Below are positions 20,328 through 60,223 of a DNA stretch of 64,000 nt, piece by piece; position 1 is the first letter of the stretch, and every line of letters starts with the position of its first letter. The notes below the pieces were generated by a model. It saw only the letters and a list, made by a program, of their open reading frames with translations, made no database searches and was not told the DNA's origin. Both the position numbers and the translations under genes were made by a program. This stretch comes from Blastococcus saxobsidens DD2 (lineage in GTDB: Bacteria > Actinomycetota > Actinomycetes > Mycobacteriales > Geodermatophilaceae), in assembly GCF_000284015.1 (NCBI RefSeq), contig NC_016943.1, positions 1,777,541 to 1,841,540 of the forward strand, read 5' to 3'.

Positions 20328-20346
20328 CTACTATCGAAGCTAGGAG
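20328..20346. promoter_or_regulatory. 19-bp dyad, copy A
   Basis: CTACTA-TCGAAGC-TAGGAG lies 50 bases upstream of the Dyp peroxidase start (minus strand). It fits the NNACTA-N7-TAGNAG pattern found at fifteen places in this window and proposed to be the operator of the BlaI-like repressor encoded at 50405. Confidence 0.65.
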
Positions 20347-20396
20347 CCGGGTGGGGGCTCCTGCTATTCCTGCCCACCGGAGAAGCGACTTCTCGG

Positions 20397-21272
20397 TCAC
20401 AAGGCGGACGTGCTCAGCCCAGTGGCGCCCAGCCAGGCCCGCAGCCAGATCATGAGAGCGTCCCACCAGCCGGTCAGCAGCAGGATTCCCAGCAAGATCA
20501 TCAAGCCACCGCCGATCCGCATCACAGTCGGGGCGTGACGGCGGGCGAAGGCCGAGAACGTGAGGGCGCGGCGGGCGCCGAGAGCGACCAGGACGAAGGG
20601 GATGCCGAGCCCGAGGCAGTAGGCGAGGGCGAGGACGGCGCCGCGGCCGGCGGATGCCTGGGTGTAGGCGAGGGTGTTCACCGCGGCCAGGGTCGGGCCG
20701 AGGCAGGGCGTCCACCCGAGGCCGAACACGACGCCGAGGACCGGGGCGCCGGCCAGGCCGGCCGGCGGCCGGTGGTGGATGCGGCGTTCGCGCATGAGCC
20801 AGGGGATTGCGCCGAGGAAGGACAGCCCCATCGCGATCACGACGACGCCGGCGACCCGGGTGAGCAGCGGAGCCCACTCCAGCAGCAGCCGGCCCAGGCC
20901 GCCGAACAGTGCGCCGAAGGAGACGAAGACGGCGCTGAAGCCGGCGATGAACAGCAGGGAACCGGCGAGTACCCGGCTGCGGCCGGCGGCTGCCGGCCCG
21001 GCCTGTGATGAGGACGTGCTGCCAGTCTCGGGGGAGCGGTCGGCCGGTGCCGTCCCCGCGGGGCTGCCGCCGGCAGGTTGCGGAACCCGGGGCTGGCCTG
21101 CGGTGGCCTGGGAGCCGGCGAGCCCGGCGACGTAGCTGACGTAACCGGGGATCAGCGGCAGGCAGCACGGGGAGGCGAAGCTGATCAACCCGACGAGCGC
21201 TGCCACCGCGATGGCGAGCAGCAGCGATCCGTCGGTGACGATGCCAGCGAAGGTCGCCGCGAGCTCGCTCAC
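20397..21272 (-). CDS. ccdA: CcdA-type cytochrome c biogenesis / thiol transporter (1)
   Basis: The product has 291 residues with six to seven helices. The DsbD/CcdA signature FASPCCLPLIPGYVSYV in helix 1 carries one redox Cys, and GWTPCLGPTLAAV in helix 4 carries the other. A loop of about 45 residues, rich in Pro/Ser/Gly, follows helix 1. CcdA carries electrons from cytoplasmic thioredoxin to thiol proteins outside the membrane. Its GTG overlaps the stop of the TlpA gene upstream, so the two should work as donor and acceptor. Confidence 0.9.
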   Translation of the reverse strand: MSELAATFAGIVTDGSLLLAIAVAALVGLISFASPCCLPLIPGYVSYVAGLAGSQATAGQPRVPQPAGGSPAGTAPADRSPETGSTSSSQAGPAAAGRSRVLAGSLLFIAGFSAVFVSFGALFGGLGRLLLEWAPLLTRVAGVVVIAMGLSFLGAIPWLMRERRIHHRPPAGLAGAPVLGVVFGLGWTPCLGPTLAAVNTLAYTQASAGRGAVLALAYCLGLGIPFVLVALGARRALTFSAFARRHAPTVMRIGGGLMILLGILLLTGWWDALMIWLRAWLGATGLSTSAL

Positions 21273-21883
21273 GCCTCGGTCTCCTCGATCAGCAGCTCCA
21301 CCGCAGCGCGGAGGTCATCACCGCGGACCTGGCCGGTGTAGACGGCGGCGACCCGGCCGTCGCGGTCCAGCAGGATGGTCGAGGGCACCACGTTGGCCGG
21401 GAACCCGCGGAACGCCATCGCCACCTCGCCGCGCGGATCGAACACCGACGGGTAGGCCACCCCTAGCCGCTCGACGAAGGCGACGGCCATCTGCCGCTGG
21501 TCCTTGACGTCGATGCCGAGGAACTGCGCGCCGCGGTCGGCGACGTCGGCGTGCACGGCCTGGAACTCCGGCGTCTCCACTCGGCACGGTGTGCACCAGG
21601 ATCCCCAGAAGTTGATGACGGCGACGTCTCCGGCGAGGGAGGAGGACTCGAACGGGGTGCCGTCGAGCAGCTCCCCTGAGAACGCAGGGGCCGGCGCGCG
21701 CCGCTCCTCCGGGATCACGGTCGCGGCGGCTGTGGGCTCCCGGAATTCGAACTCACCGGTGCCCCCCTCGTCGCCGGTCAGCCCCGTGGAACAGCCGAGG
21801 AGCGCGGTCGAGCTCAGCGCTCCGGCGGCGATCAGGAAGATGCGACGGTTGAGCATGCGGTCGGAGCCAGCTGTGCTGGTCAC
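21269..21883 (-). CDS. TlpA/ResA-like thiol-disulfide lipoprotein (1)
   Basis: About 204 residues, with a signal RRIFLIAAGALSS ending in lipobox ALLGC. The thioredoxin fold has the active site WGSWCTPC, then cis-Pro segment VVPSTILLD. The start may be the GTG at 21883 or the ATG at 21856, which begins the signal more compactly. Expected role: reduce cysteines of apocytochromes or copper sites in the cell envelope, powered by the overlapping CcdA. Dyad copy L sits 25 bases upstream. Confidence 0.9.
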   Translation of the reverse strand: MTSTAGSDRMLNRRIFLIAAGALSSTALLGCSTGLTGDEGGTGEFEFREPTAAATVIPEERRAPAPAFSGELLDGTPFESSSLAGDVAVINFWGSWCTPCRVETPEFQAVHADVADRGAQFLGIDVKDQRQMAVAFVERLGVAYPSVFDPRGEVAMAFRGFPANVVPSTILLDRDGRVAAVYTGQVRGDDLRAAVELLIEETEA

Positions 21884-21907
21884 CGCGGTCGCCGGTCATC
21901 GCGGGAT

Positions 21908-21926
21908 CGACTAAGCACGCTAGTAA
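21908..21926. promoter_or_regulatory. 19-bp dyad, copy L
   Basis: CGACTA-AGCACGC-TAGTAA lies 25 bases before the TlpA/CcdA operon (minus strand). It is close enough to the start to overlap the promoter, consistent with a repressor site. Confidence 0.65.
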
Positions 21927-21973
21927 GTTACAGGCCCTCCGGTAGCGCCGCGATCGTCCACCGTGTGGGCTGC

Positions 21974-22019: not shown

Positions 22020-22325
22020 TCACGAGCTTGACCGTCTCCATCCCCAGCTGGTGCCGCGGTGGTCGTGCGGAGCGTCGTCGCGACGCTGGAGCTCGCGCCT
22101 GAGCTTGCGCTCGGAGAGGCGGCCGAAGGAGAAGAAGTCCCCGTCGACCAGGATGCCGGGGGCGAAGAGGACGCCGTGTCGTTCCCCCAGCGCCCGACCC
22201 TCCTCGGTCTCCAGGCTGATCTCTTCGGTCTCGAACTCCTGTTCCTGGCTCAGCTGGGCCAGCGTCTCCTTGGCCTGTTCGCAGAAGGAGCACGACGTCT
22301 GGGTGAGGAGGGTGACGACGGTCAT
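22020..22325 (-). CDS. glutaredoxin-like protein
   Basis: 101 residues. The fold starts VVTLLTQTSCSFCEQAKETL with a CSFC redox site, then GVLFAPGILVDGDFFSFGR (the thioredoxin-fold cis-Pro strand) and a basic helix, LSERKLRREL. It has no signal peptide, so it probably acts in the cytoplasm. The start overlaps the stop of the peroxiredoxin gene by four bases. It may supply electrons to the membrane carrier encoded two genes upstream. Confidence 0.85.
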   Translation of the reverse strand: MTVVTLLTQTSCSFCEQAKETLAQLSQEQEFETEEISLETEEGRALGERHGVLFAPGILVDGDFFSFGRLSERKLRRELQRRDDAPHDHRGTSWGWRRSSS

Positions 22326-23029
22326 CGGTCGGTCCGGGCGGCCTCGAGGTCGGCGAGGATGGTGTCGACGGGCAGGTACATCGTGTAGTCCGGCGCCCCG
22401 CCGTAGTCGGCCCGCCAGACGATCTCCCCCTGACCGTCGACGAGGATGAAGCTGTGCCCGGCCGTGGTGTCGCCCATCATCCCGTACTTGTTCGCCTCGT
22501 AGGCCTCGATCACGGCCAGGTCAGGGTCAGCCAGTGCGAGGGACTCCAGGCCGTCATCGTCCATCTTCTGGACCAGCAGGTCCTGGGGAGCGTTGGTGAT
22601 GCTGACCAACTGGTCCACGCCGGCCTCCTCCAGCTGGGGGGTCGCCGCCTCGAGGTCCCGGATCTGGTCCCAGCAGGCCTGGCAGCCCAGTCCTTCGTGG
22701 AAGTACAGCAGCACGTTCTCCCCGCGGAAGTCGCTGAGCGATACGTCCTGTCCGTTCGTCCCCGGCAGGGTGAAGTCCGGAGCCTCCTCGCCGGGGCCGG
22801 GTGATCCGACGTCGTAGCGCTCGGGGTCGGCCGCCCCTGCGGAGCTCGTGCTGCTCTGGTAGACGGCGTAGAGGCCGCCGATGACCAGGATCGCCACGAG
22901 CCCAGCAACCACCCAGATCCGGGCCCCACCGCCCCGCTGGTCGCGACGCGCGGCGGCGACGGCTCGTGCGCCTTCGGTGCTCGCGTCTCTGGCGGGGCTC
23001 TTGGTGCTACCGCGTCCACTCATCGTCAT
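22322..23029 (-). CDS. membrane-anchored AhpC/TSA-family peroxiredoxin-like protein
   Basis: From the ATG at 23029 the product has 235 residues: a basic cytoplasmic start, one anchor helix (IWVVAGLVAILVIGGLYAVY) and an external AhpC/TSA domain. The domain begins PGEEAPDFTLPGTNGQDVSLSDFRG, with the reactive site EGLGCQACW (CxxC instead of the usual peroxidatic TxxC) and a C-terminal GHSFILVDGQGEIVWRADYGG. The CxxC points to a thiol reductase or peroxidase fed by the neighbouring CcdA-like protein. It overlaps that gene's stop (ATGA). Confidence 0.85.
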   Translation of the reverse strand: MTMSGRGSTKSPARDASTEGARAVAAARRDQRGGGARIWVVAGLVAILVIGGLYAVYQSSTSSAGAADPERYDVGSPGPGEEAPDFTLPGTNGQDVSLSDFRGENVLLYFHEGLGCQACWDQIRDLEAATPQLEEAGVDQLVSITNAPQDLLVQKMDDDGLESLALADPDLAVIEAYEANKYGMMGDTTAGHSFILVDGQGEIVWRADYGGAPDYTMYLPVDTILADLEAARTDR

Positions 23030-23964
23030 GATCTCCCGGTCGGTGAGGTCTCGGTCGGTTCGACGGCGCGGTCCTCGCCATCGGTCGGGTTGGTCGGCGA
23101 GGGGTCGGTCTCCGAGCCGCGGCTGCGCACGGCGCGCAGGACGAGCACTGCCAGTGCGCCGAAGACGAGGGCCGCGGAGAGCCAGCCGGGGATGAACGAC
23201 AGGGCGTCCTCGACCTGGGCGGCAGCGTGCCCGAGGGCTGCGGTCAGGCGGATCTGCCACTCGCCGGTCGCCATGCCCTGCCCGGCAAGGGCCAGGACCA
23301 TGGTCAGCGCACCCATCAGGATCATGAGCACGGCGGAGAGCAGCGTGGAGAGGAGAACGGTGCGGCGCAGCCGGCCGGCCCGGAGGGTCACCGTTCGGCT
23401 GGCCAGCAGGCGCGTCTTGCCCCAGTCCCGGCGATCCCACAGCAGAGCGATCACGGTCAGCGGCGCCACCATGCCGAAGACGTAGGCGATCCCGACGGCC
23501 AGGGCCGCCGGGAAGGACGCGACTGCTCCCGACACCGCTGCGACGCCGGCCAGGACGGGAGCGCAGCAGGCGCTGGCTGCCCCCGAGAAGGCGCCGAGGC
23601 TGTACACCGAGCGCAGGCCGCTACCGCCGCCCGTGCGCATGGACGGCATGGGCAGCATGAACTTCCAACCGTTGAGCATCGCCAGACCGGCGAGCACCAT
23701 GAGGCCACCACCGATCGAGAAGATGATCGCGTGCTGCTCGTTGAGCAGCCGGCTCAGGAACGACGCGCCCAGGGCGATGGGCAGGATCACCGTTCCGACC
23801 CCGGCGGCGAAGACGACGGTCATGAGGACCAGGCGCGAGCGCTGTCGGAAGCTCGAGGCGAAGTAGGCCGGGAGCATGACGGACACGCAGCACGGAGCGA
23901 GGAGTGCGAGCACGCCTCCGATGAAGGAGGCGAGCACCGTCGTGGACAGCAAGAGGTCCTGCAT
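23026..23964 (-). CDS. CcdA-like membrane thiol transporter with two CC pairs (2)
   Basis: 312 residues from the ATG at 23964, seven to eight helices. The pore cysteines appear as CC pairs: LLAPCCVSVMLPAYF in helix 1 and SGAASACCAPVLAGV in helix 4, rather than the PCxxP / TPCxGP of ordinary CcdA. A C-terminal Asp/Glu/Thr-rich tail follows the last helix. It heads the ccdA-peroxiredoxin-glutaredoxin operon and reads away from three 19-bp dyads at 24074-24151. The likely job is to move reducing power outward to the peroxiredoxin-like partner. Confidence 0.8.
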   Translation of the reverse strand: MQDLLLSTTVLASFIGGVLALLAPCCVSVMLPAYFASSFRQRSRLVLMTVVFAAGVGTVILPIALGASFLSRLLNEQHAIIFSIGGGLMVLAGLAMLNGWKFMLPMPSMRTGGGSGLRSVYSLGAFSGAASACCAPVLAGVAAVSGAVASFPAALAVGIAYVFGMVAPLTVIALLWDRRDWGKTRLLASRTVTLRAGRLRRTVLLSTLLSAVLMILMGALTMVLALAGQGMATGEWQIRLTAALGHAAAQVEDALSFIPGWLSAALVFGALAVLVLRAVRSRGSETDPSPTNPTDGEDRAVEPTETSPTGRS

Positions 23965-24073
23965 CGTCACTTCCAGCTGACTCGGATGGGAGGGCGGACC
24001 TCTGGTGGCCGGATGGGCGCTACCGGAGACGGCCGCACGAAGGAACTGCGGCGCGTTCCCGCTCCCGCGAAGT

Positions 24074-24151
24074 CCACTATGACACATAGGAGTCGGCTCG
24101 ACCACTATGACGAATAGGAGTCGGGGTCGACACCACTATCCTTCTTAGGAG
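24074..24151. promoter_or_regulatory. three 19-bp dyads in the ccdA2 / small membrane protein divergon
   Basis: CCACTA-TGACACA-TAGGAG (24074-24092), CCACTA-TGACGAA-TAGGAG (24102-24120) and CCACTA-TCCTTCT-TAGGAG (24133-24151) are spaced 28 and 31 bases apart. The last also begins a larger dyad ending ATAGTGG. The identical arms CCACTA and TAGGAG across three copies with unrelated centres are strong evidence of a protein site, placed between two divergent transcription units. Confidence 0.8.
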
Positions 24152-24194: not shown

Positions 24195-24422
24195 ATGTCC
24201 GAGTCGCTCTACCTGCTTGCCCTCCTGGCCTGTCCCGTGGGGATGGGCCTGATGATGTGGATGATGATGAAGATGCAGCGGCCGTCCGCCGCTGCGGCCG
24301 CGGAGAGCCCTGCCGAGACGACCGTCGAGAAGCAGGCTGAGCTCATCAAGCTGCGCGCCGAGATCGACCAGCTGCGCGCCGAGCGCCGGGACGACTCCAA
24401 GCCGGCCGGCTGGGCTCTCTGA
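24195..24422 (+). CDS. small Met-rich membrane protein with coiled-coil tail
   Basis: 75 residues. One membrane helix carries ACPVGMGLMMWMMMKM, followed by an Ala/Glu linker and a charged coiled coil (KLRAEIDQLRAE). The ATG has a GGAGGAA ribosome site. A related protein is encoded at 31494-31817: both share the ACP-x2-MG-x-MMW-x-M element and a C-terminal coiled coil, and both sit just after a 19-bp dyad. Methionines facing the membrane interior may bind Cu(I). The family function is unknown. Confidence 0.75.
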   Translation: MSESLYLLALLACPVGMGLMMWMMMKMQRPSAAAAAESPAETTVEKQAELIKLRAEIDQLRAERRDDSKPAGWAL

Positions 24423-25165: not shown

Positions 25166-25927
25166 GTGCGGCCCGTCCTGTTCGAGGTCTTCGGTTTCCC
25201 GATCAACAGCTACGGCGTCAGCAAGGCCGCCGCCGCACTGGTGGCGGGGTACCTGCTGGCCCGTGAGTTCCGACGCTTGGGATGGAATCCCGACCGCGCC
25301 TGGTCGATCATCATCGCGGCGACCGTCATGGGATTCGTCGGCGGCAAGCTGTACTACCTCGCCGAGCACGCCGGAAGCCTGTCACTGCACTCGTTCGGAG
25401 GGTCGGGGTTCACCTGGTACGGCGGCCTGATCGCCGGGGTCGTGACCGTCGTGGTGATGGCGCGCCGGTACGAGCTCCCGCTCGGTCAACTGGCGGGGAT
25501 CGCGGCCGCCCCGCTGTCCTTCGCGTACGGCGTCGGCCGCATCGGGTGCTTCTTGTCCGGAGATGGCTCGTACGGGCAGCCGTCGGATCTCCCCTGGGCG
25601 GTCGCCTTCCCGAACGGGATGATGCCCACCATGGTGCCCGTGCATCCCGCCGCCCTGTACGAAGCGCTCTTCGCGCTCGCACTGGGCGGGGTTCTGTGGG
25701 CGCTGCGCACCCGGTGGGCACCGCTGCACGTCTTCGGCCTGTACGCGGTGCTCAGTGGAGTTGCACGGTTCCTCGTCGAGGAGATCCGTCTCAACGAGGA
25801 GGTCCTGTTCGGGCTGACCCAGCCACAGCTCTGGTCCCTGATTCTTGCCGCGGTCGGCGTCGGTCTCCTGGTGACCGGGAGGCGTAGCCCGTCCGAGAAG
25901 GAGCCGGCCGCGTCCGCGGCCGCCTGA
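25166..25927 (+). CDS. lgt: prolipoprotein diacylglyceryl transferase family protein (1)
   Basis: 253 residues with seven predicted helices. Lgt landmarks are SYGVSKAAAALVAGYLLARE, WYGGLIAG, the signature GRIGCFLSGDGSYG (GRxGNF in housekeeping Lgt; Asn is Cys here), VHPAALYE and a final GVARFLVEEIR. Lgt puts the diacylglycerol group on lipobox cysteines. A dedicated copy makes sense beside the many lipoproteins of this island, but the changed signature could mean altered activity. It is followed three bases later by the response-regulator frame. Confidence 0.85.
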   Translation: MRPVLFEVFGFPINSYGVSKAAAALVAGYLLAREFRRLGWNPDRAWSIIIAATVMGFVGGKLYYLAEHAGSLSLHSFGGSGFTWYGGLIAGVVTVVVMARRYELPLGQLAGIAAAPLSFAYGVGRIGCFLSGDGSYGQPSDLPWAVAFPNGMMPTMVPVHPAALYEALFALALGGVLWALRTRWAPLHVFGLYAVLSGVARFLVEEIRLNEEVLFGLTQPQLWSLILAAVGVGLLVTGRRSPSEKEPAASAAA

Positions 25928-31440: not shown

Positions 31441-31459
31441 TTACTAGCCTGGATAGTAG
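31441..31459. promoter_or_regulatory. 19-bp dyad, copy C
   Basis: TTACTA-GCCTGGA-TAGTAG sits 35 bases before the ATG of the DUF2933-like gene at 31494. It has the full TAGTAG right arm and places that short gene in the proposed BlaI regulon. Confidence 0.7.
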
Positions 31460-31493: not shown

Positions 31494-31817
31494 ATGCTCA
31501 GGTCGATGCGGTGCTGCCTGAACCCGAAGGTCATCGGGGGTCTGATCGCCGCAGGCGTGGCGCTCTGGCTGATGGCCCCGGCCGCCAGTACCGCGGCACT
31601 TCCGCTGCTCATCGCGCTGGTCTGCCCCCTGTCCATGGGCGTGATGATGTGGCAGATGAATCGCGGCGGCGGTAGTTGTGGCGCCTCGAGTGGGGGCCGC
31701 TCTGCGGCAGCCCCCTCCGTCGACGTCGACGAGGAGCTGCGGCAGGCGCGCGAGGAGGTCTCGATCGCCCGGGCCCGCCAGCAGCTGGGTGACCGGGGCA
31801 ATCAGGCGCCCGCCTGA
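31494..31817 (+). CDS. DUF2933-like small membrane protein
   Basis: 107 residues: CCLNPKVIGGLIAAGVALWLMAP (first helix after a CC pair), then LPLLIALVCPLSMGVMMWQM (second helix) and a GGGSCGASSGG linker, ending in a charged coiled coil. This matches the DUF2933 plan often found in copper and silver loci. It shares the CPxxMGxMMWxM element with the protein at 24195. Function unknown; the Cys/Met content suggests Cu(I) contact. Ribosome site AGGGAG. Confidence 0.8.
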   Translation: MLRSMRCCLNPKVIGGLIAAGVALWLMAPAASTAALPLLIALVCPLSMGVMMWQMNRGGGSCGASSGGRSAAAPSVDVDEELRQAREEVSIARARQQLGDRGNQAPA

Positions 31818-31931: not shown

Positions 31932-32849
31932 TCAGGACGAGGACGTGGCGACGTAGGAGATGATCGTCGCCATGCCGGTGCCCATGTGGTAGGCGTTGTG
32001 GCAGTGGGTCAGCCACTGACCCGGATTGTCGGCCGTGAAGTCGACGATCACCCGTTCCCCCGGCGCCACCATCACCGTGTCCTTCACCGCACCGGCGAAC
32101 AAGGGGAGGCGGTTCCGCGCCGGATCTCGCAGGTCACCGGCAGTTGCTCCCGGGAAGAGGTCACCAGAACCTCGCACGGTGAAACTGTGGCCGTGCACAT
32201 GCATCGGGTGGTACATCGGAGTCTGGTTGACCAGCTCCAGTCGGACCCGCTGGCCCTCCCGGATGGCCGCGGGCGTGATGCCGGAGAAGGGGCGCCGGTG
32301 GTCGTAGCTCTGGGCATTGATGCGCCAGGCGAAGCTGAACATGTCTCCGGTGAGATGGAGGGTGTGGGTCACGTCCGGGGGCAGGTCGTCCTGGTCAACG
32401 GTGGGCGCCGCGCGGAGGTCGGTGAGCCGGAGCAGTCGCCCACTCAGCTCACGGGGAGCCGCAGCGGCTGACGGGGCTGCACCGCTGGCAGTGCGGACCA
32501 CTCCGAGCGCCTGGGCCCCATGGCCTTCTGCCACCGCCACCAGCGGGAAGGCCCCGTCTCCGAGGGTGACGAGCACGTCATAGCGCTCGCCGGCGCCGAT
32601 GTGGAGGTTGTCGACCGTGATCGGCTCGACCGGGAACCCGTCGGTATGGGTGACGGTCAGCCGGTGGCCTCCGAGAGCTACCCGGAAGGTGGTCGTCCCG
32701 GCGGCACTGATCAGCCGGATTCGTGCTCGTTGACCCGGCCTGGCGGCGAACGTCTCGGGGTCCGTGGGCAGGTGCCCGTTCAGGAGGTAGAACGGGTACC
32801 GCACGCTGTCGGCCATGCGCGACGCTGCGGACACTGGCGTCTCGGAACC
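31932..32849 (-). pseudogene. 3' half of a multicopper oxidase gene
   Basis: About 305 codons encode cupredoxin domains 2-3 of a CopA/CueO-type multicopper oxidase. YPFYLLNGHLP and VDNLHIGAGERYDVLV precede the copper motifs HPMHVHGH and HCHNAYHMGTGM (T1 Cys and Met plus T2/T3 His). The 5' half lies beyond the IS3-type insertion at 32850-34376. The two HxH motifs needed for the trinuclear centre are in that separate half, so neither piece alone can be a working oxidase. Confidence 0.9.
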
Positions 32850-32876
32850 TGTCAAGCCGGTTGAGACAAGATCGCG

Positions 32877-33899
32877 TTAGTTGTTCTGGATGAGGGCCTC
32901 CCTGCTGGGCTGGTTGATCCAGGCGGCGGTCGGCAGCGGTGGCGGGGTGGGGCGCCGGTGGCCGAAGCGGGTGGGGTTGGCCGCGTAGGCCGCTGCCAGG
33001 GTCGCGGCCCGCTGGGCGCGGACCTCACCGGCGGTGCCGTGGTGCACCGAGGCCGGGGTGTGCAGCCCGAGCCCGGAGTGGCGGTGGTCGTGGTTGTAGT
33101 AGGCGAAGAACGCCTCGCAGAACGCGCGGGCGTCGGCCAGGCAGCCGAACCGGTCGGGGAAGACCGGGGCGTACTTCAGCGTCTTGAACGCCGACTCGCT
33201 GAACGGGTTGTCGTTGGAGACGTGCGGCCGGGAGTGGGAGCGGGCCACGCCGAGGTCGACCAGCAGCTGGGCGACCGGCTTGGAGGTCATTGAGGTGCCG
33301 CGGTCGGCGTGCACGCTGCCCGGAGCGCCGTGCACGGCGACCGCGTCGGCGATCAGGGCCTTGGCGATGTCGGCGTCCTCGCGGGCGGCGACGGTCCAGC
33401 CCACGACGTAGCGGGAGAAGATGTCGAGCACGACGTAGAGGTCGTAGTAGACGCCGCGCTGCGGTCCGCGCAGCTTGGTGATGTCCCAGCTCCACACCTG
33501 CCCTGGCGCGGTGGCCAGCAGCTCGGGCTTGGCCCGCGGCGGATGGGTGGCCTGCCGGCGCCGCTCCCGGGACTGCCCGGCCGTGCGCAGCAGCCGGTGC
33601 ATGGTCGACATCGAGCACAGGTAGCTGCCCTCGTCCAGCAGCGTCGCCCAGCACTGGGCCACGGACTTGTCGGCGAACCGGGCGCTGTTGAGCGTGGCCA
33701 GCACCTGCTCCCGCTCGGCGTCGGTGAGCGCGTTCGGCGGTGCCGACCGCGGCGGCTTGTCCTGCCGGGGCGCCGGTGGAATCTGGGCGCGGTAGTGCGT
33801 TGCGCGTGACCAGCCCAGCAGCGCACACGCCTGCGTGGTCGAGGTGTGCGCGGCCAGCTCGGCCACCGCTGGGGCGATCACTTCTTCGACGGCTTGTCG
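32877..33899 (-). CDS. IS3-family transposase OrfB (DDE integrase part)
   Basis: The frame is open from 34106, but conserved sequence begins near 33899 (about 341 residues). An HTH-type segment (TSTTQACALLGWSRATHYRA) precedes the rve integrase core, with DDE residues in VWSWDITKLRG, GSVHADRGTSM and NPFSESAFKTLKY, then FCEAFFAYYNHDHRHSGLG. It is normally made as an OrfAB fusion by frameshifting near the end of orfA; no independent start codon is convincing. Confidence 0.9.
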   Translation of the reverse strand, partial: RQAVEEVIAPAVAELAAHTSTTQACALLGWSRATHYRAQIPPAPRQDKPPRSAPPNALTDAEREQVLATLNSARFADKSVAQCWATLLDEGSYLCSMSTMHRLLRTAGQSRERRRQATHPPRAKPELLATAPGQVWSWDITKLRGPQRGVYYDLYVVLDIFSRYVVGWTVAAREDADIAKALIADAVAVHGAPGSVHADRGTSMTSKPVAQLLVDLGVARSHSRPHVSNDNPFSESAFKTLKYAPVFPDRFGCLADARAFCEAFFAYYNHDHRHSGLGLHTPASVHHGTAGEVRAQRAATLAAAYAANPTRFGHRRPTPPPLPTAAWINQPSREALIQNN

Positions 33900-34315: not shown

Positions 34316-34376
34316 CCTGTCTCGCCCTGTGCGGAGGGAGAAAGAACTACCCGAGGTGTCTCACGTCAGCCTGACG

Positions 34377-46441: not shown

Positions 46442-46857
46442 GGCGCCCCGTCGCCGGGTTCACCCTCGGCGCTGTCCGGGGCCTGGTAGTTCTCGTCGTG
46501 CTTGATGATCATGGTGTCGGACCGGAACGTGTCACCGTCCCAGGCTCCCTCCATCACCACTCCGATGCCGGGGCGGAACAGCTGTGCGGGGGACCCCCGG
46601 TAGGCCACCGGCACTTCCGCGGGGCCGGAGACGACCACGAAGCGCAGCCCGTCGTCCGTCGTCTCCACGCTGCCGTCCTGCACTAGACCGCCGATCTGAA
46701 AGCGCCTGCCGTCCTCGAAGTCGGCCTTCTGCGCGAGCGCCTCGTGCGGCGTCAGGAAGTACACGAGGTTCCCGTTGATGTTCCCGACGAAGAGGACGCC
46801 CAGCAGGATCCCCGCGACGCCGAGCACCGAGACGGCCAGCAGGCGGTATCGCTTCAT
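46438..46857 (-). CDS. ccmE: haem chaperone CcmE
   Basis: 139 residues from the ATG at 46857: one N-terminal anchor helix, then the CcmE OB-fold (VYFLTPHEALAQ, RRFQIGGLVQDGSV, FVVVSGPAEVPVAYRGSPAQLFRPG, VVMEGAW). The haem-attachment motif is IIKHDENYQAP, with the covalent His and following Tyr. Archaeal and some bacterial CcmE use Cys instead; this one is the His type. Overlaps ccmD by four bases. Confidence 0.95.
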   Translation of the reverse strand: MKRYRLLAVSVLGVAGILLGVLFVGNINGNLVYFLTPHEALAQKADFEDGRRFQIGGLVQDGSVETTDDGLRFVVVSGPAEVPVAYRGSPAQLFRPGIGVVMEGAWDGDTFRSDTMIIKHDENYQAPDSAEGEPGDGAP

Positions 46858-46976
46858 CGGATCTTCTCGATCCGCCGGGTGGCCTCGCTCAGCCGGTGCC
46901 GCAACCAGGCGGCGTAGCCGCCCATGGCCCCGTAGGCGACGCTGAATCCCAGCGCCACCCATGCCCACTCAGACAT
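46854..46976 (-). CDS. ccmD: CcmD, 40-residue System I subunit
   Basis: A tiny gene between ccmC and ccmE encodes MSEWAWVALGFSVAYGAMGG and then YAAWLRHRLSEATRRIEKIR: one membrane helix followed by a basic helix, exactly the CcmD plan. Its ATG overlaps the ccmC stop by eight bases and its TGA overlaps the ccmE ATG (ATGA). CcmD links CcmC and CcmE during release of holo-CcmE. Position, size and topology all agree. Confidence 0.85.
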   Translation of the reverse strand: MSEWAWVALGFSVAYGAMGGYAAWLRHRLSEATRRIEKIR

Positions 46977-47703
46977 GGTTCGGGAACTCCTTCCGGTAGT
47001 CAGGGGTGGTGACGGCCTCCCCGGCGAGCTCGCCGGCGGCCCCGTCGTGCGCGGCGTCGTAGGCCTCCTCGGCGACCGCCAGCCGGATGCGTGCGCGCAA
47101 CAGAACGACGTAGACCAGCGTGAAGGCGAGGACGTTCAGCAGCAGGGCGGCGAGCATCCATTCGTCGATCGTGGGGGCCGCCGGCTTGAGCACCGTCGGC
47201 GGCTGGTGCACCGCCCGCCACCACACCACGGACATGTGGACGACCGGGATCTGCGCGAAGGCCAGGACGCCGAACACGGCGCTCCGCCGCGCTCGCACCG
47301 TGGCATCCACGGTCGCCCGACGCAGCGCCAGGTAGCCCAGGTAGACGAAGAACATCATGGCCGTCGTGACCAGCCGGGGATCCCAGGTCCACCAGACCCC
47401 CCAGACCGGCTTCCCCCAGATGGAGCCGAGCGCGATGGTGAGTCCGGTGAAGAAGACCCCGACCTCCGCACTGGCCGAAGCGAGCCGGTCCAGGGACGCC
47501 CGGCGCTTCCACAGCCACGCCGCGCTGGCGCCGAACGTGATGGCAAAGCTGAGGTAGGCGAGCCACGCTGCCGGGACGTGGACGTACATCAGTCGCTGCA
47601 GATTGCCCTGCAGCCGGTCGGGGGGAGCGGTGAGCGCTGCGGCCAGAGCGCCGGCCATGGCGACGATGGTGACGGCGGTCAGCCGGCGAAAGACGGACCT
47701 CAC
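46969..47703 (-). CDS. ccmC: haem delivery protein CcmC
   Basis: 244 residues from the GTG at 47703, six helices. The WWD motif is WGKPVWGVWWTWDPRLV and the flanking haem histidines are in MYVHVPAAW and VVHMSVVWWRAVHQPPTV. CcmC places haem on CcmE. Its start overlaps the ccmB stop. The C-terminal tail (GAAGELAGEAVTTPDYRKEFPNHV-type) is longer than in proteobacteria. Confidence 0.95.
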   Translation of the reverse strand: MRSVFRRLTAVTIVAMAGALAAALTAPPDRLQGNLQRLMYVHVPAAWLAYLSFAITFGASAAWLWKRRASLDRLASASAEVGVFFTGLTIALGSIWGKPVWGVWWTWDPRLVTTAMMFFVYLGYLALRRATVDATVRARRSAVFGVLAFAQIPVVHMSVVWWRAVHQPPTVLKPAAPTIDEWMLAALLLNVLAFTLVYVVLLRARIRLAVAEEAYDAAHDGAAGELAGEAVTTPDYRKEFPNHV

Positions 47704-48374
47704 GAGAACTCCTCGAGGGATCGAGCGAAGAGCGCAACCGCGAGTGCGGCGACGATGTCGACGAGCAGCAGCAGGGCCAGCCAGTTCCACGGTTCCCGGC
47801 CATAGCGAACCGACTCGGCCACCTGCGTGGCCGACAGAAGCAGGGGAAGCGCGAGCGGCAAGACCAGAAGGGGCCCGAGGGTCGTGCGGCCGGCCAGTCC
47901 CTGCGCCAGAGCCCCGGCCAAGGTGCCGAGCACGGCCAGCCCGGCAGCGACCAGCGGCAGGACGGCGAGCAGCCAGGGCCAGCTGTCGAGGGGTGGGTCG
48001 TAGATCATGACCGCGACCGGCAGCAACGTCAGCTCGAACGCCAGCAGGAGCACGGCGCTGGCTGCCGCCCGCCCCGCCAGCCGGACGACGGGATGCACTC
48101 CAGTGAGCCGGAGCAGGGCCACCTGCGCGGCTGTGTCCGCGGTGCTCTGCCGCAGGCTGACCAGCACCCCGAAGAGAAGCACCACGACCCAGTAGATGCC
48201 GTAGCCGACGGACCGCAGCAGGGGGACGTCGGTGCCGATGGCGAGCGGGACGAGCAACAGCGCCACCCCGCCGAACGGTGCGGTGACCAGCAGAGCCTCG
48301 CCGGCTCGTCCCTCGAGGAGGAGGTCCTTGCGGGCCAGCTCCAGGACCTGCCGTGCCGGAGGCGGCGGGGTCAC
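47700..48374 (-). CDS. ccmB: CcmB ABC-transporter permease
   Basis: 224 residues from the GTG at 48374 with six predicted helices and the CcmB start LARKDLLLEGRAGEALLVTAPFG. With CcmA it forms the ATP-driven complex needed to free holo-CcmE from CcmC. Start and stop overlap ccmA and ccmC. Sequence conservation in this family is modest; operon position makes the call firm. Confidence 0.9.
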   Translation of the reverse strand: MTPPPPARQVLELARKDLLLEGRAGEALLVTAPFGGVALLLVPLAIGTDVPLLRSVGYGIYWVVVLLFGVLVSLRQSTADTAAQVALLRLTGVHPVVRLAGRAAASAVLLLAFELTLLPVAVMIYDPPLDSWPWLLAVLPLVAAGLAVLGTLAGALAQGLAGRTTLGPLLVLPLALPLLLSATQVAESVRYGREPWNWLALLLLVDIVAALAVALFARSLEEFS

Positions 48375-49042
48375 CGGGCCGCCTGCGCGGGCACGGGCGT
48401 GGCCGAGGGGAGGGCGTCGTGAAGACTCCCCGCCTGGAGATCCAGGACTCGGTCGACGGCCGCGTCGAGCCGGGCACGATCGTGGGAGACGACGACTGCG
48501 GCACCTCCGCGAGCGCACACGTCGTCGATGACCGCATCGACCAGGCCGGCCGAGCCGCTGTCCAGCCCGGCGTGCGGTTCGTCGAGCAGGAGGAGGGCAG
48601 GCGTGCTGAGGATGGCGCGGGCGAGCTCCGTCCGGCGCTGCATCCCCTGCGAGCAGCGGTCCGCGGGTCGGTCCGCGGCCCGACCCAGTCCGACTGCGTC
48701 CAGGGCCGTGCTGACGGCCGACACATCGACACCGGTCAGACGACAGAAGAAGCGCAGGTTCTCGGCCAGCGTCAGCCGGGGATAGAGCGCGGGTGAGTGC
48801 CCGATCAGGCCGATGCGAGGACGGATCCTCTCGCACTCACGGCTGCCCAGCGTCGAACCGAATACCCGACCGGTGCCGGCGGTAGGGGAGAGAAGAGTGG
48901 CCAGCAGGCGCAACAGCGTGCTCTTGCCCGACCCGTTCGCCCCGATCACCCCCACTGATTCGCCCGCTCCCACGGTGAGCGTCAGGTCCCGGAGGACCGG
49001 TGTGCGCTCGACCGAGACCGCGATGCCGTGCAGCTCGATCAC
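48371..49042 (-). CDS. ccmA: CcmA ABC-transporter ATPase
   Basis: 223 residues from the GTG at 49042: Walker A GANGSGKST, Q-loop region IGLIGHSPALYPRLTLAENL, signature CSQGMQRR (a variant of LSGGQ usual in CcmA), Walker B LLLLDEP and the switch His in VVVSHD. First gene of the minus-strand ccm operon. The 321 bases upstream hold dyad copy G and no gene. Confidence 0.92.
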   Translation of the reverse strand: MIELHGIAVSVERTPVLRDLTLTVGAGESVGVIGANGSGKSTLLRLLATLLSPTAGTGRVFGSTLGSRECERIRPRIGLIGHSPALYPRLTLAENLRFFCRLTGVDVSAVSTALDAVGLGRAADRPADRCSQGMQRRTELARAILSTPALLLLDEPHAGLDSGSAGLVDAVIDDVCARGGAAVVVSHDRARLDAAVDRVLDLQAGSLHDALPSATPVPAQAAR

Positions 49043-49224
49043 CGCATCCGGGTGAGCCTGCCGCCCAGCAGGGCAGGCGTCGTACGGCAGCCGGGAAGCG
49101 GGGGACACGGTCAGCCTCGACCTTCTTCGGCGCCGGGGAGGGGAGTGCTCAACGTCAACAGCAGTACGCAGGTAGATAGTACGGACGTGGGTAGTAGTGA
49201 CAGCGGCCGGGGCGGCGGCGGGCT

Positions 49225-49243
49225 CTACTAGGCGCAATCGTAG
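49225..49243. promoter_or_regulatory. 19-bp dyad, copy G
   Basis: CTACTA-GGCGCAA-TCGTAG lies between ccmA (minus) and the sulfurtransferase gene (plus). Further half-site-like TAGTA blocks at about 49175 and 49192 suggest additional weak sites in the same divergon, whose 321 bases show no gene. Confidence 0.65.
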
Positions 49244-49363: not shown

Positions 49364-50191
49364 ATGAGCCGTAACGACGTGCTCGTCACCGTCGACTGGG
49401 TCCAGGAGAACCTGGGCCAGCCCGGCATCGTCTTCGTCGAGGTCGACGAGGACACCACCGCCTACGACGGCGGCCACATCGAGGGCGCCGTCAAGCTGGA
49501 CTGGAAGACCGACCTCCAGGACCCGCTGCGCCGCGACTACCTCGACAAGTCTGCCTTCGAGGCGCTGCTGTCGTCCCACGGCATCAGCAACGACGACACC
49601 GTGGTGCTCTACGGCGGCAACAACAACTGGTTCGCCGCCTACGCCTACTGGTACTTCAAGATCTACGGCCACCGCGACGTCAAGCTGATGGACGGCGGCC
49701 GCAAGAAGTGGGAACTCGACGGCCGCCCGCTGTCGAATGACGCTCCTCAGCGCCCGGCTATCCAGTACCAGGCCGCCGAGCCGGACCTGTCCATCCGCGC
49801 GTTCCGCGACGAGGTCGTCGCCTCTATCGGCTCGAAGAACCTCGTCGACGTGCGCTCGCCCGACGAGTTCTCCGGCAAGATCCTCGCCCCCGCCCACCTG
49901 CCCCAGGAGCAGTCGCAGCGGGCCGGTCACGTGCCCACGGCGATCAACATCCCGTGGAGCAAGGCCGCCAACGAGGACGGCACCTTCAAGAGCGACGAGC
50001 AGCTGGCCGCGCTCTACGGCGAGCAGGGCTTCGATGACAGCAGGGAGACCATCGCCTACTGCCGCATCGGCGAGCGCTCCAGCCACACCTGGTTCGTGCT
50101 CAGCGAGCTGCTCGGTAAGAAGAACGTCAAGAACTACGACGGCAGCTGGGTCGAGTACGGCTCGCTCGTCGGCGTTCCGATCGAGAAGTGA
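49364..50191 (+). CDS. thiosulfate sulfurtransferase (rhodanese), two-domain
   Basis: 275 residues with two rhodanese domains. The first is inactive (no Cys at its loop: VVLYGGNNNWFAAY). The second has the active loop AYCRIGERSSHTW. Conserved DGGHIEGAVKLDW, MDGGRKKWELDGR and VDVRSPDEFSGK fit SseA/CysA-type actinobacterial enzymes. It transfers sulfane sulfur to cyanide or thiols and may repair Fe-S or handle sulfur from copper-damaged centres. ATG with AGAAGGAGA site. Confidence 0.93.
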   Translation: MSRNDVLVTVDWVQENLGQPGIVFVEVDEDTTAYDGGHIEGAVKLDWKTDLQDPLRRDYLDKSAFEALLSSHGISNDDTVVLYGGNNNWFAAYAYWYFKIYGHRDVKLMDGGRKKWELDGRPLSNDAPQRPAIQYQAAEPDLSIRAFRDEVVASIGSKNLVDVRSPDEFSGKILAPAHLPQEQSQRAGHVPTAINIPWSKAANEDGTFKSDEQLAALYGEQGFDDSRETIAYCRIGERSSHTWFVLSELLGKKNVKNYDGSWVEYGSLVGVPIEK

Positions 50192-50363: not shown

Positions 50364-50382
50364 CGACTAACCGAGCTAGTAC
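50364..50382. promoter_or_regulatory. 19-bp dyad, copy H (blaI autoregulation)
   Basis: CGACTA-ACCGAGC-TAGTAC ends 22 bases before the GTG of the BlaI-like gene. Presence of the common motif at the promoter of the only BlaI/CopY-class repressor in the window is the main reason to assign the motif to that protein. Confidence 0.7.
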
Positions 50383-50404: not shown

Positions 50405-50833
50405 GTGTCGGATGTGCCGACTGGTGTAAAGCGGTCTCAGCGATCGATTGATGGGGAGATGCCGGTGCGACCGTTCGGTGACCTGGAAGCTGTGGTCATG
50501 CAGTGCCTGTGGCGGCGAGGCGCGCCGGCGACCGTCCGTGAAGTGCTCGGTGAGCTGAACGGCTCGCGCTCCCTCGCGTACACCACCGTCATGACCGTCA
50601 TGGACAACCTGCACCGCAAGGGTCAGCTTCAGCGGCAGATGGAGGGGCGTGCCTGGCACTACACCCCCACCCGCACGTGGAGCGAGCACTCGGCGGCACT
50701 TCTCCAGGAAGTCCTCGAGGAAGCGAGCGACCGGGACGCGGTGCTGATGCACTTCGTCGCCGATCTGGACCAGGACGGGGTGGCCAAGCTCCGCGCGGCG
50801 GTGGAAGCTGCCCGTCGCGCTGACGCCCCCTGA
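50405..50833 (+). CDS. BlaI/MecI/CopY-family repressor
   Basis: 142 residues from the GTG at 50405 (an inner ATG at 50459 is also possible). The winged helix is typical: FGDLEAVVMQCLWRRGAPATVREVLGEL, recognition part SLAYTTVMTVMDNLHRKGQLQRQMEGRAWHYTPTRT, then a C-terminal dimerisation helix. No CopY-type CxCx4CxC zinc/copper hook is present, so it is of the BlaI type, inactivated by proteolysis. Overlaps the M56 protease gene by one base. Proposed master repressor of the copper/thiol region. Confidence 0.9.
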   Translation: MSDVPTGVKRSQRSIDGEMPVRPFGDLEAVVMQCLWRRGAPATVREVLGELNGSRSLAYTTVMTVMDNLHRKGQLQRQMEGRAWHYTPTRTWSEHSAALLQEVLEEASDRDAVLMHFVADLDQDGVAKLRAAVEAARRADAP

Positions 50834-51792
50834 TGGTCAGCGCAGGCCTGCTCGCTTTCGCGGTCGTCCTGGCCGTCCTGGCGCCCAGGATGGTCGGTGC
50901 AGCCTGGGCTGATCGCGCACCCCGGCTCGCGGTCTGCGCCTGGCAAGCGACCTCGGTCGGGGTCGTGTTTGCGACGGTCCTCGCAGGTTTGACGCTGCTC
51001 GTGCCGGCCACCGCGATCAGCGGGGGACTCGCTGCGTTGCTCGACGCCTGCGCCACGACGATTGCAAATGTCTACAGCTCGCCCGGTCAGGTGCCCGGGA
51101 TCGTGCTCGGCGGGCTTCTGGCCGTTGTGGTGCCCTCGCGTCTCGCCTTTGTGGCGGTGAGGCAGGTCCGGCGTGACCGTCTGGAGCGACAGCGATTGCG
51201 GTCGTCGGTGCTGGTGGGTGCCCATCCCAGCCCCTTCCTCGGTGCCCACGTTGTGAACTCTTCTCAAGCGGCCGCCTTCTGCATCCCCGGTCGGCACCGC
51301 ACGATCGTGCTGACCAGCGCGGCTCTCGAGGGACTGTCCGATGAGGAGTTGGCCGGGGTCCTGGCACACGAACGGGCACACCTGCGTGGCCGCCACCACC
51401 TCCCTGTGACCGCGGCCCGCATCCTCGGTCGCGCGTTCCCGCGCCTTCCGGTGTTCGCCCGTGCCAGGGCGGAGACCGAACGGCTCGTCGAGCTGTTGGC
51501 CGACGATGCCGCCGCGCGCGAGGTCGACCGGGTCGAGGTTGCATCTGCGTTGGTCAGCCTGGCGGGCATGAAGGCTCCGGCCGTCGTCATGGCGGCGGCG
51601 CAGGCCGCGGGGGCGGTCCGGGTGAACCGGCTGCTCAGGCCTGTTCAGCCCCTTGCGCCGATCCATGGATTCCTCGCCGTTGTCACCGCTGCCTCGGTCG
51701 TCGCTGCACCCTTGGCCGTTGCGCTGTGGCCCCTGCTGTCCGCTGCGTCGAGCGGGCTGTGCCTGCTGCCCGGCGAGGCGTGGTGGGCCTGA
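50833..51792 (+). CDS. M56 (BlaR1-like) membrane metalloprotease
   Basis: 319 residues: four or five helices with the zinc protease motif VLAHERAHLRGRH (H179, E180, H183) on the cytoplasmic side and a downstream Glu-bearing helix LVELLADDAAAREV as third ligand. Unlike staphylococcal BlaR1 it has no penicillin-binding sensor domain, only short loops. In this arrangement the protease usually cleaves the partner repressor on a membrane signal; here that signal may be copper or thiol damage (inference). Confidence 0.9.
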   Translation: MVSAGLLAFAVVLAVLAPRMVGAAWADRAPRLAVCAWQATSVGVVFATVLAGLTLLVPATAISGGLAALLDACATTIANVYSSPGQVPGIVLGGLLAVVVPSRLAFVAVRQVRRDRLERQRLRSSVLVGAHPSPFLGAHVVNSSQAAAFCIPGRHRTIVLTSAALEGLSDEELAGVLAHERAHLRGRHHLPVTAARILGRAFPRLPVFARARAETERLVELLADDAAAREVDRVEVASALVSLAGMKAPAVVMAAAQAAGAVRVNRLLRPVQPLAPIHGFLAVVTAASVVAAPLAVALWPLLSAASSGLCLLPGEAWWA

Positions 51793-53541: not shown

Positions 53542-53805
53542 TCAGTTTTCGCGCAGGTCCTGCAACCGCCGGCGGAACTCGTCGGTGTCCAACTCGCCGC
53601 GGGCATACCGCATCCGGACTTCGTCTTCCGCCGACGAGTCCTCGCGGCGACCAGAGCCCCCTCGGGGCGCGTCCGTCGGCCGACGGGTTGCACGCACCAC
53701 CAGCACGACTGCGACTGCGATCAAGGCGATCAGCAGCGCCGTCCAGAGGAGCATGCCCAGGCCCATGCCCATCATGCCCATCATGCCCATGTCTCCACCC
53801 ATCAC
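53542..53805 (-). CDS. SHOCT-domain membrane protein with Met-rich N-terminus
   Basis: 87 residues from the GTG at 53805, which has an AGGAGG site. The start is MGGDMGMMGMMGMGLGM and runs into one membrane helix. A basic linker and a SHOCT motif (VRMRYARGELDTDEFRRRLQDL) end the protein. Such proteins accompany copper-transport genes; the Met cluster may touch Cu(I) at the outer face. Dyad copy I lies 35 bases upstream. Confidence 0.8.
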   Translation of the reverse strand: MMGGDMGMMGMMGMGLGMLLWTALLIALIAVAVVLVVRATRRPTDAPRGGSGRREDSSAEDEVRMRYARGELDTDEFRRRLQDLREN

Positions 53806-53839
53806 GCCGACAACCTCCTGTTGAACCTCGATCGGACTT

Positions 53840-53858
53840 GTACTAAATGCCATAGTAG
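53840..53858. promoter_or_regulatory. 19-bp dyad, copy I
   Basis: GTACTA-AATGCCA-TAGTAG lies 35 bases before the SHOCT gene (minus strand), at promoter distance. Five of six left-arm and all right-arm bases match CTACTA/TAGTAG. Confidence 0.7.
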
Positions 53859-59188: not shown

Positions 59189-59249
59189 GAGAAGTCCCTG
59201 TGCAGAGGACCTCGGCCTCGCTCACCCTGGGCCCGGCTGGATCCCGCCG

Positions 59250-59948
59250 TCACCCGGCAGCGGCGAGCTCGGTGAGGTCTTCTGCGTACTGCTCGGGTGT
59301 CGTGCCGCCGGTGTAGACGATCGAGCGGTCGCCCGGGCCCCAGATGTAGACGGCACCAGCGTGGTCGATCCCGTACTCCTGGTGGGCATCGTCCCCGTCG
59401 TGGGGATGTGCCGGGGCGTCGGAGGCGGCGGGGACCTGTGCGGTCTCGGGGAGGTACAACTCGGTGAGCGCAGCCGCTGTGGCTTCGCTTCCCCCGATGA
59501 GCCCGGTGAATTCCGGGTCGAACCGGTCGAGCCACTCACGCAGGGCCGCCGGGGTGTCCCGAGCCGGGTCCTCGGTCACGAAGAGGACCTGCACGTGGTC
59601 CTGCAGCTCCGGTTCCAGCATCTCCCGGGCCAGTGAGAGGTCGGCCATCGTCGTGGGACACAGATCCGGACAGTGCGTATAGCCGAAGAACAACACCGTG
59701 ACTTCGTCATCCGGCCGCTCGCTGAGGTCGAACACCTCCCCACTCGTCGTGAGGAGCTCCAGGTTCGGACGAGGCCGCGGGGGATCCATCACCGTCCCGT
59801 GGAAGCCGTCGTCTTCCGTGGTGATGGTTATCCCGTTTTCCGCTGAAGCGTCCACCGGGTCGGTGGCGTCGGCACCACAACCGGCCAACATCAGGCTGCC
59901 GAGGAGAACGGCAGCGCTCGCTGCCGTGCGACCGCGGACCACGCGCAC
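59250..59948 (-). CDS. Sco1/SenC/PrrC-family copper lipoprotein
   Basis: 232 residues from the GTG at 59948 (GGGAGG site). A signal ends in lipobox LMLAGC. The thioredoxin-like core has the Sco copper motif FGYTHCPDLCPTTM (CxxxC) and the distal His in GIDHAGAVYIWG. An extra His/Asp patch (APAHPHDGDDAHQEYG) precedes it and may bind metal. Sco proteins load Cu(A) of cytochrome oxidase or act as thiol reductases. Dyad copy J lies 44 bases upstream. Confidence 0.92.
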   Translation of the reverse strand: MRVVRGRTAASAAVLLGSLMLAGCGADATDPVDASAENGITITTEDDGFHGTVMDPPRPRPNLELLTTSGEVFDLSERPDDEVTVLFFGYTHCPDLCPTTMADLSLAREMLEPELQDHVQVLFVTEDPARDTPAALREWLDRFDPEFTGLIGGSEATAAALTELYLPETAQVPAASDAPAHPHDGDDAHQEYGIDHAGAVYIWGPGDRSIVYTGGTTPEQYAEDLTELAAAG

Positions 59949-59991
59949 GGAACCTCCCGAGTAGTACGAGGTGGCCGCGACGGGATGCTGA

Positions 59992-60010
59992 CCCCTAGGC
60001 GACATAGTAA
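59992..60010. promoter_or_regulatory. 19-bp dyad, copy J
   Basis: CCCCTA-GGCGACA-TAGTAA sits 44 bases before sco1 (minus strand) in the 311-base sco1/CBS divergon (59949-60259), which has no gene of its own. Confidence 0.6.
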
Positions 60011-60204
60011 GCAGCGGCTCGTGGAGCCATCTCACCTGCCAGGTTAGGTCCGGAGCACACGGTCACCAGGGCAGACCGGCGCACTCAGGTCGGCATCCCG
60101 GTACGGGTGCCAGGAGCGGGACCGGCCTTCACCCGCGTACAGAGACGTGCACGGCCGGCCGGACCGGCAGCGTCGACAGAGAAGTCGACAGCCACGAGTA
60201 CCGA

Positions 60205-60223
60205 GTACGAGTCCGGGTAGTAG
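60205..60223. promoter_or_regulatory. 19-bp dyad, copy K
   Basis: GTACGA-GTCCGGG-TAGTAG lies 37 bases before the CBS-domain gene (plus strand). The left arm is weaker, but the right arm is perfect and the position is promoter-like. Confidence 0.55.

Follow-up and report, generated by a model that had tools for sequence, protein, structure and literature searches.

The BlaI and MecI systems of Staphylococcus aureus act on one or two targets, and in mycobacteria BlaI has an M56 partner protease that lacks a sensor domain. Sala et al. 2009 reportedly described a mycobacterial BlaI regulon (Rv1846c/Rv1845c) with several targets, including ATP-synthase genes. According to one report (PMC12565901), mycobacterial BlaI binds the promoter of Rv1303, which is co-transcribed with ATP synthase genes, and another (PMC7924339), devoted to copper starvation, describes cytochrome bd and ATP-synthesis operons as higher in a sigC mutant, with rv1305 and atpE as predicted BlaI members. 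Here we analyzed a 64,000-nt stretch of the Blastococcus saxobsidens DD2 genome (NC_016943.1, positions 1,777,541 to 1,841,540; hereafter the window), in which a 19-bp dyad recurs around genes for copper handling, thiol repair and cytochrome c maturation. The same island encodes a BlaI-type repressor (50465-50833, + strand) and, overlapping its stop codon, a membrane zinc protease without a sensor domain (50833-51792, +). The 15 dyads are very probably operators read by the window BlaI. We consider it highly likely that a BlaI dimer binds and represses the 15 operators and that the sensorless BlaR1-like protease cleaves BlaI upon an extracytoplasmic signal. The sites, their confinement, linkage to BlaI and spacing, the autoregulatory site and the target content are read from the sequence, and from these we infer binding, repression, proteolysis and the signal.

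The dyads in the window and the genome

The initial annotation listed 15 copies of the dyad, and all 15 positions carry it on direct reading of the sequence. Fourteen of them match CTACTANNNNNNNTAGTAG (CTACTA-N7-TAGTAG) with at most two mismatches, and the site at 59992 has three. At the level of at most two mismatches, 100 dinucleotide shuffles of the window gave a mean of 0.05 matches and a maximum of 2. A matrix covering only the arms was built from the 15 window sites, with a score of at least 16 as the threshold for a site. The 15 sites score 16.4-23.3 and the next-best place in the window 14.6, while a first-order Markov model predicts 0.02 places scoring at least 16 per 64 kb.

A full-genome scan (4,875,340 bp), which had been proposed along with the matrix, shows that the motif is nearly confined to the window region. 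Six places have no more than one mismatch; five belong to the window, and the sixth, C1:1871097, lies 30 kb beyond it. The motif is therefore not equally frequent elsewhere, which would have spoken against a regulon. Allowing up to two mismatches raises the number to 26: 14 in the window, 10 scattered and two (1843968 and 1871097) shortly past its end. Eight of the scattered places score below 16, and the other two score 18.0 and 18.4. The sites at C1:1843968 (L075:2428) and C1:1871097 (L076:9557) extend the set outside the window. One of the two precedes a DUF3105 gene, and the other lies about 50 bp before a small open reading frame (ORF) that we read as a candidate zinc-finger anti-sigma factor. 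The sequence at C1:1871097 is found again, identical, in a second genome (G005).

The sites had been described as all intergenic, which holds for most of them. Those at 20328, 24074, 24102 and 59992 lie inside the longest reading of a neighboring ORF and upstream of a later in-frame start of that ORF, so the description depends on the choice of start.

The window BlaI scores above the cut-off of PF03965 (Penicillinase_R winged helix; E = 1.2e-24, scanned from 50405, the start at 50465 being set by comparison with relatives), and its matches in the PDB are 2g9w, MecI and BlaI. It is the one strong Penicillinase_R gene of the genome, the other being marginal (at 701692; 23.5 bits, cut-off 22.6). 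As first noted, a copy of the motif (50364-50382) stands upstream of blaI, as a site does at most family loci examined, which makes it a putative autoregulatory operator of the blaI-protease promoter. The classical TACA-NN-TGTA operator is not present at the blaI promoter, where CTACTA-N7-TAGTAG stands instead, and none of the 15 window sites matches the CopY-type operator KACANNTGTM.

Association of the dyad with BlaI

Among the matches listed in 112 Geodermatophilaceae genomes, BlaI proteins were grouped by identity to the window BlaI into group A (63-100%), group B (about 43-50%) and group C (about 34-43%, in many genomes). An A/B-type BlaI was scored as present at a best E <= 1e-22, and the motif was counted separately at no more than one mismatch. 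The motif occurs in 41 of the 41 genomes with an A/B-type BlaI versus 7 of the 71 without (Fisher p = 1.1e-23), and two or more copies occur in 38 of 41 versus 1 of 71 (Fisher p = 3.5e-25). The association holds within the five genera that contain both states (17/17 versus 0/6, 6/6 versus 0/10, 5/5 versus 4/21, 5/5 versus 0/4, and 8/8 versus 1/15), and two further motif-bearing genomes without an A/B-type BlaI belong to a genus that has no A/B genome at all. Of 30 family loci, 26 have a site no more than 250 bp upstream of the BlaI match; the four without are L010, L019, L025 and L033. One genome (G012, contigs C6 and C10; L057-L061) has both an A-type and a B-type BlaI island. The operator is the same in the two islands and present many times in each, so that cross-regulation between the repressors is possible.

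Scanning of related islands, also suggested at the outset, finds the motif again beside relatives of the BlaI subfamily in the family and in other actinobacteria. Alignment A1 gave 80 of 587 named loci, of which 67 (766,776 bases) are not titled Geodermatophilaceae. On these 67 loci, arms separated by 7 bp give 156 sites in 57 loci and arms separated by 10 bp give 55 sites in 33 loci; the remaining spacers between 0 and 15 yield 0-11 sites each, and a reversed-motif control gives 13 sites in 12 loci. By their titles, the loci in which sites accompany BlaI come from many genera of actinobacteria. A class sample of 296 genomes collected without bait contained 44 exact copies of the motif, at least 28 of which are no more than 20 kb away from a listed BlaI.

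Several of these results weigh against a strict pairing of this operator with this repressor. Seven family genomes have a one-mismatch match and no A/B-type BlaI, and ten of the 67 non-family loci have no site scoring at least 16 in the stretch (L119, L122, L123, L135, L138, L139, L142, L144, L170 and L173). The 10-bp spacer is enriched as well; we take this excess to be a candidate 3-bp register echo of extended TAC/GTA repeats. In the class sample, 16 of the 44 exact places have no listed BlaI nearby; four of these belong to genomes without any BlaI match, and eight of the 16 fall in one family (f2) of the window's own order. Seven core BlaI genes of that family were examined, and in five of them (L200, L202, L206, L207 and L209) TACTA-N7-TAGTA is found with 0-1 mismatch at a distance of 61-80 bp before the match, compared with a background of 0.03 per 200 bp. 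The geometry of the dyad may therefore predate this island. The recognition helix of the seven f2 core BlaI proteins resembles that of PDB 2g9w, which we take to be M. tuberculosis BlaI.

To describe the sites, we pooled the window and 108 loci, giving 336 sites, of which 254 have a gene start within reach. The pool excludes ten named Geodermatophilaceae loci and L096, whose BlaI is 98% identical to that of the window. L096 and six of the ten duplicate contigs of the pool, whereas the other four (L100, L101, L103 and L105) were excluded for no such reason. The pooled sites were selected with the window-derived matrix, which biases their motif frequencies and also tells against our reading. Gene calls came from a simple GC-frame script and not from a trained gene finder; the script scores 30% of random places as intergenic and thus misses genes. 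Strictly intergenic by this measure are 277 of the 336 sites. Across the pooled sites the arms are conserved, in contrast to the 7 bp at the center and the flanking bases, which show weak conservation or none. Within 128 oriented sites, TANNNT stands at offset 1 in 54 cases, at offset 4 in 29 and at offset 16 in 29, compared with about 1.3 per offset, which fits, weakly because the arm sequence itself contributes part of the signal, an operator that overlaps the -10 box.

The patchy, island-like distribution of the motif would also be expected of a chance pattern or of a mobile repeat that travels with the island. We find this barely conceivable, given conserved arms around a largely unconserved center and flanks, a far higher intergenic share than that of random places, the rarity of most other spacers and the spread over many actinobacterial genera. 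Chance or low complexity was rejected by the shuffles, the Markov model, the spacer series and the reversed control.

Two other regulators of the island, CsoR (54222) and a response regulator (25931), might bind the dyads in place of BlaI. Both are encoded among copper-related targets, and csoR stands directly behind a site in five pooled loci. The window CsoR has Cys-His-Cys at the CsoR metal positions, presumably the known Cu(I)-binding places, and CsoR operators are of another type than these dyads. Seven islands (L062-L065, L067, L071 and L074) have the sites and BlaI but no homologue of the window CsoR or response regulator in the stretch fetched, and it is therefore very unlikely that either protein is the binder. 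Because these islands were fetched around BlaI, they indicate that CsoR and the response regulator are dispensable and do not by themselves demonstrate the role of BlaI.

The BlaI paralogues of group C provide a contrast. The dyad TTCTAC-N5-GTAGAA is exact in 19 of 20 group C stretches, mostly in two or more copies, the exception (L041) being a different paralogue, and a cydA-like reading (QFGITT..) is divergent from the group C blaI in 11 of 12 stretches checked. This dyad occurs exactly 1-3 times each in 87 of the 112 family genomes; in the window genome (G000) there is no exact copy, and no group C BlaI is among the matches listed. Aligned on their centers, the two operators agree at positions 4-6 (CTA/TAG) and diverge at positions 3 and 7. 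In groups A and B the recognition helix has the sequence LAYTTVMTV..NLHRKG, and in group C it has LALTTVHTVL.RLEQKG. The operator and the recognition helix change together, as direct recognition predicts. From its position, the cydA-divergent pair (L037-L056 and L176-L193, with mostly two or three operator copies) looks like a regulator of cytochrome bd. The near-confinement of the motif, its presence or absence with BlaI, the autoregulatory site, the spacing, the islands without the other two regulators and the paralogue contrast could each have told against BlaI as the binder of the window dyads, as originally proposed, and they support it instead.

The partner protease and the candidate cysteine sensor

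The protease encoded at 50833-51792 is 319 residues long, carries the zinc motif HERAH and terminates at its last hydrophobic span, so that the C-terminal penicillin-binding sensor is absent; relatives with a placeable start have about 290-350 residues. It had been introduced as an M56 protease without a beta-lactam sensor. The missing sensor domain and the position next to blaI bear this out, whereas the Pfam profiles do not back the family name: the protein scores 16.6 bits with the Pfam M56 profile, below the cut-off of 31, and passes the cut-off for M48 with 41.5 bits. Its five PDB matches are M48/HtpX/Ste24-like, and a BlaR1 entry is not among the five. "BlaR1-like" is therefore used here in a functional sense and implies no formal family membership. 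In 37 protease sequences, H179, E180, H183 and E220 (HExxH and the downstream Glu) are invariant. A protease match stands in the same stretch at 107 of 113 BlaI loci, and 106 of the 107 have HExxH. The profile results, the PDB matches and the six loci without a protease match (L113, L133, L139, L140, L142 and L173, some on short contigs) speak against a universal BlaR1-type partner. At a further locus (L145, Amycolatopsis tucumanensis ABO) the protease beside BlaI is in two segments, and the matched pieces have no HExxH; the gene is possibly broken or misassembled.

In S. aureus, BlaI is cleaved by its protease between Asn101 and Phe102 (PMC9834060). Phe98 of the window BlaI aligns with this Phe102, the P1' position, and is invariant in 18 BlaI rows. 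Proteolytic derepression is the likeliest switch because the protease accompanies BlaI and Phe98 matches the S. aureus cleavage site. A BlaI that binds the dyads and answers a ligand or metal directly, with no proteolytic switch, would have a precedent in CopY, a BlaI homologue controlled by copper through a C-terminal Cys-X-Cys (PMC7253601). The alignment shows no such tail in the window BlaI, which has a single cysteine near its N-terminus, and neither alignment A1 nor A2 contains an invariant BlaI cysteine, in agreement with the initial description of a repressor without a metal hook. With the frequent protease and the conserved cleavage-site Phe added, a directly responding BlaI appears improbable. 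CopY-like direct copper sensing was rejected on the missing conserved cysteine.

In the proteolytic model, a BlaI dimer would sit on CTACTA-N7-TAGTAG over each target promoter and over the promoter of its own operon and repress them. The polytopic zinc protease would sense an extracytoplasmic disturbance and cut BlaI at His97-Phe98, the equivalent of Asn101-Phe102 in S. aureus. Loss of BlaI would then derepress together the genes for copper handling, extracytoplasmic thiol repair (TlpA, CcdA, glutaredoxin and rhodanese), cytochrome c maturation, Sco1 and lipoprotein maturation.

Two cysteines of the protease, Cys73 and Cys310, may form a sensor for thiols or copper. The comparison of their occurrence excludes five protease matches (two with a short N-terminus, two without HExxH in the segment and one at a contig end), and the remaining 109 sequences were reduced to 102 by removing identical rows. 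By alignment column, Cys73 is present in 85% and Cys310 in 84% of the 102 distinct proteases, and both are present in 81 by a slightly looser test; the 21 proteases without one or both limit the generality of a cysteine sensor. None of the 18 cydA-paired proteases has either column occupied, although a looser test of the tail flagged four of them, with the cysteine located elsewhere. In the order of the window, the accessory proteases L194, L195 and L198 have both cysteines, and the seven core proteases there have neither. This contrast compares a few clades and not many independent events.

A crude hydropathy window puts Cys73 where the second hydrophobic span borders on the third, and Cys310 close to the end of the final span (271-314). 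In BlaR1, the EL1 loop relays the signal (PMC9834060). By analogy, the position of Cys73 would be equivalent to the EL1 loop and that of Cys310 to the outer end of the last membrane span, and both cysteines would probably lie near the outer face of the membrane. Targets for disulfide reduction and copper handling would agree with either a disulfide or a Cu(I) site. A system widespread among actinobacteria could then be envisaged in which a sensorless BlaR1-like protease reads the extracytoplasmic thiol state or Cu(I) via the cysteine pair and destroys BlaI, in which the copper, disulfide-repair and cytochrome-assembly operons rise together, and in which the TlpA and CcdA targets reset the cysteines, closing a feedback loop. 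We offer this as a tentative proposal, possible if somewhat on the doubtful side.

Target genes and comparison with known systems

Most of the genes named as targets in the initial annotation are indeed preceded by a site. The first operator (20328-20346) lies 49 bp from the start (20278) of the gene for an EfeB-like DyP peroxidase (18953-20278, -). The second (21908-21926), also present in L057, precedes tlpA1-ccdA1, which encode a TlpA-like thioredoxin (21269-21883, -) and a CcdA/DsbD_TM protein (20397-21272, -). Three operators (24074-24092, 24102-24120 and 24133-24151) lie between a ccdA2-redoxin-grx operon and a gene for a small Met-rich membrane protein (24195-24422, +). The operon encodes a polytopic membrane protein with no Pfam match that groups with CcdA-type proteins (23026-23970, -), an AhpC/TSA redoxin (22322-23029, -) and a glutaredoxin-like protein (22020-22325, -). 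Lgt (25166-25927, +), encoded two genes behind the triple site, is a putative member of the regulon.

The operator at 31441-31459, which had been assigned to the multicopper oxidase, precedes a small Met/Cys-rich membrane ORF (31494-31817, +) and not the start of the oxidase gene. The operator at 35303-35321 lies between the 5' half of the latter, encoding the N-terminal half of the oxidase (34361-35146, -), and lgt2 (35501-37033, +), both of them targets; two more operators (35363-35381 and 35388-35406) stand in the same region. An insertion sequence carrying an rve integrase (32877-34106, -) splits the oxidase gene (31932-35146). In L058 of genome G012 both oxidase segments are matched, and the space between them gives no integrase match.

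For cytochrome c maturation, one operator (37145-37163) precedes the ccmF-ccmH-ccmI-ccmG operon (37275-41413, +). Another (49225-49243) lies between ccmA, of the ccmA-ccmB-ccmC-ccmE operon (46438-49102, -; ccmC by position only, with no Pfam match), and the gene for a rhodanese sulfurtransferase (49364-50191, +). The operator at 53840-53858 lies just upstream of the gene for a Met-rich SHOCT protein (53542-53808, -; E = 1.5e-5, below the Pfam cut-off for SHOCT) and 364 bp from csoR. The weaker operator with three mismatches (59992-60010), scored with the arms-only matrix, precedes the gene for Sco1/SenC (59250-59948, -), and the last (60205-60223) precedes a gene for a CBS-domain protein (60260-60691, +). 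Beside the latter, the ORF at 60809-62182 encodes a fusion of a metallo-beta-lactamase fold and a rhodanese domain, which we read as persulfide dioxygenase-like; this fusion and the rhodanese encoded at 49364 may point to a role of the island in the handling of persulfides.

In the pooled loci, the commonest gene directly behind a site is blaI (33 of 109 loci). The loci were fetched around blaI, and the target list is therefore biased toward genes near it, a further reservation about our reading. Cluster names come from one typed representative per cluster or from a match to the window proteins. TlpA-like proteins follow in 18 loci, NlpC/P60 in 16, Sco1 in 11, BNR-repeat and DsbA-like proteins in 10 each, CcdA in 8, small Met-rich proteins in 7 and DUF3105 in 6. 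Lgt2, multicopper oxidase, Lnt, DUF6153, CsoR, DUF305 and ResB are found in five loci each, and SHOCT, COX1, an ECF sigma factor and an untyped 82-residue protein in four each; those with three include DyP peroxidase, CcmA, a ZIP transporter, a cation efflux protein and a Cys-rich DUF326 protein. Since the ECF sigma factor gene (for example L134:3707-4312, one representative typed) is directly behind a site, the regulon may reach further via this factor in some genera.

The target content points to copper, extracytoplasmic thiols and cytochrome or oxidase assembly. Sensing of beta-lactams or cell-wall damage, with the copper genes as bystanders, would agree with the classical function of BlaI/BlaR1 and with the NlpC/P60-type proteins (one representative typed). 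The protease has no sensor domain, no beta-lactamase is found among the typed target representatives, and copper, thiol and cytochrome genes dominate, so that we regard this explanation as distinctly improbable.

These results suggest that one repressor links metal handling, envelope redox repair and cytochrome assembly. From sequence alone we obtain an operator, a contrast specific to the paralogue, a list of targets rich in copper, thiol and cytochrome or oxidase assembly genes, and a pair of candidate sensor residues. The operator allows DUF3105, DUF6153, SHOCT and small Met-rich neighbors to be assigned to this response. No published account of this regulon was recognized in the literature surveyed by titles and abstract openings.

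Among the known systems, the RicR/CsoR copper regulons of actinobacteria share with this regulon a multi-operon copper response and differ from it in repressor family, operator and sensing mode. The cydA-divergent pair has the same architecture and the same geometry at the dyad center; its operator, TTCTAC-N5-GTAGAA, is different, and 18 of 18 of its proteases lack both cysteine columns. The S. aureus BlaI/BlaR1 and MecI/MecR1 systems likewise combine a repressor and a membrane zinc protease, with the P1' Phe and HExxH. They differ in their TACA/TGTA operator (PMC7253601), in the sensor domain that is absent here, and in having few targets where the window has 15 operators. CopY and CopR are BlaI homologues with copper-related targets, whereas their own operator RNYKACANNTGTMRNY and C-terminal Cys-X-Cys, as given in the same source, are both absent here.

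The mycobacterial BlaI regulon resembles ours in combining BlaI and a sensorless partner, in having several targets, and in the TACTA-N7-TAGTA geometry at five of the seven f2 core promoters. It differs in its other targets, and the seven f2 core proteases lack both extracytoplasmic cysteines. The window operator and that of mycobacterial BlaI may well be variants of one another. The mycobacterial reports on ATP-synthase and cytochrome bd genes and the cydA-divergent pair jointly suggest that sensorless actinobacterial BlaI/M56 pairs serve respiratory and envelope stress, with this branch specialized to copper and thiols.

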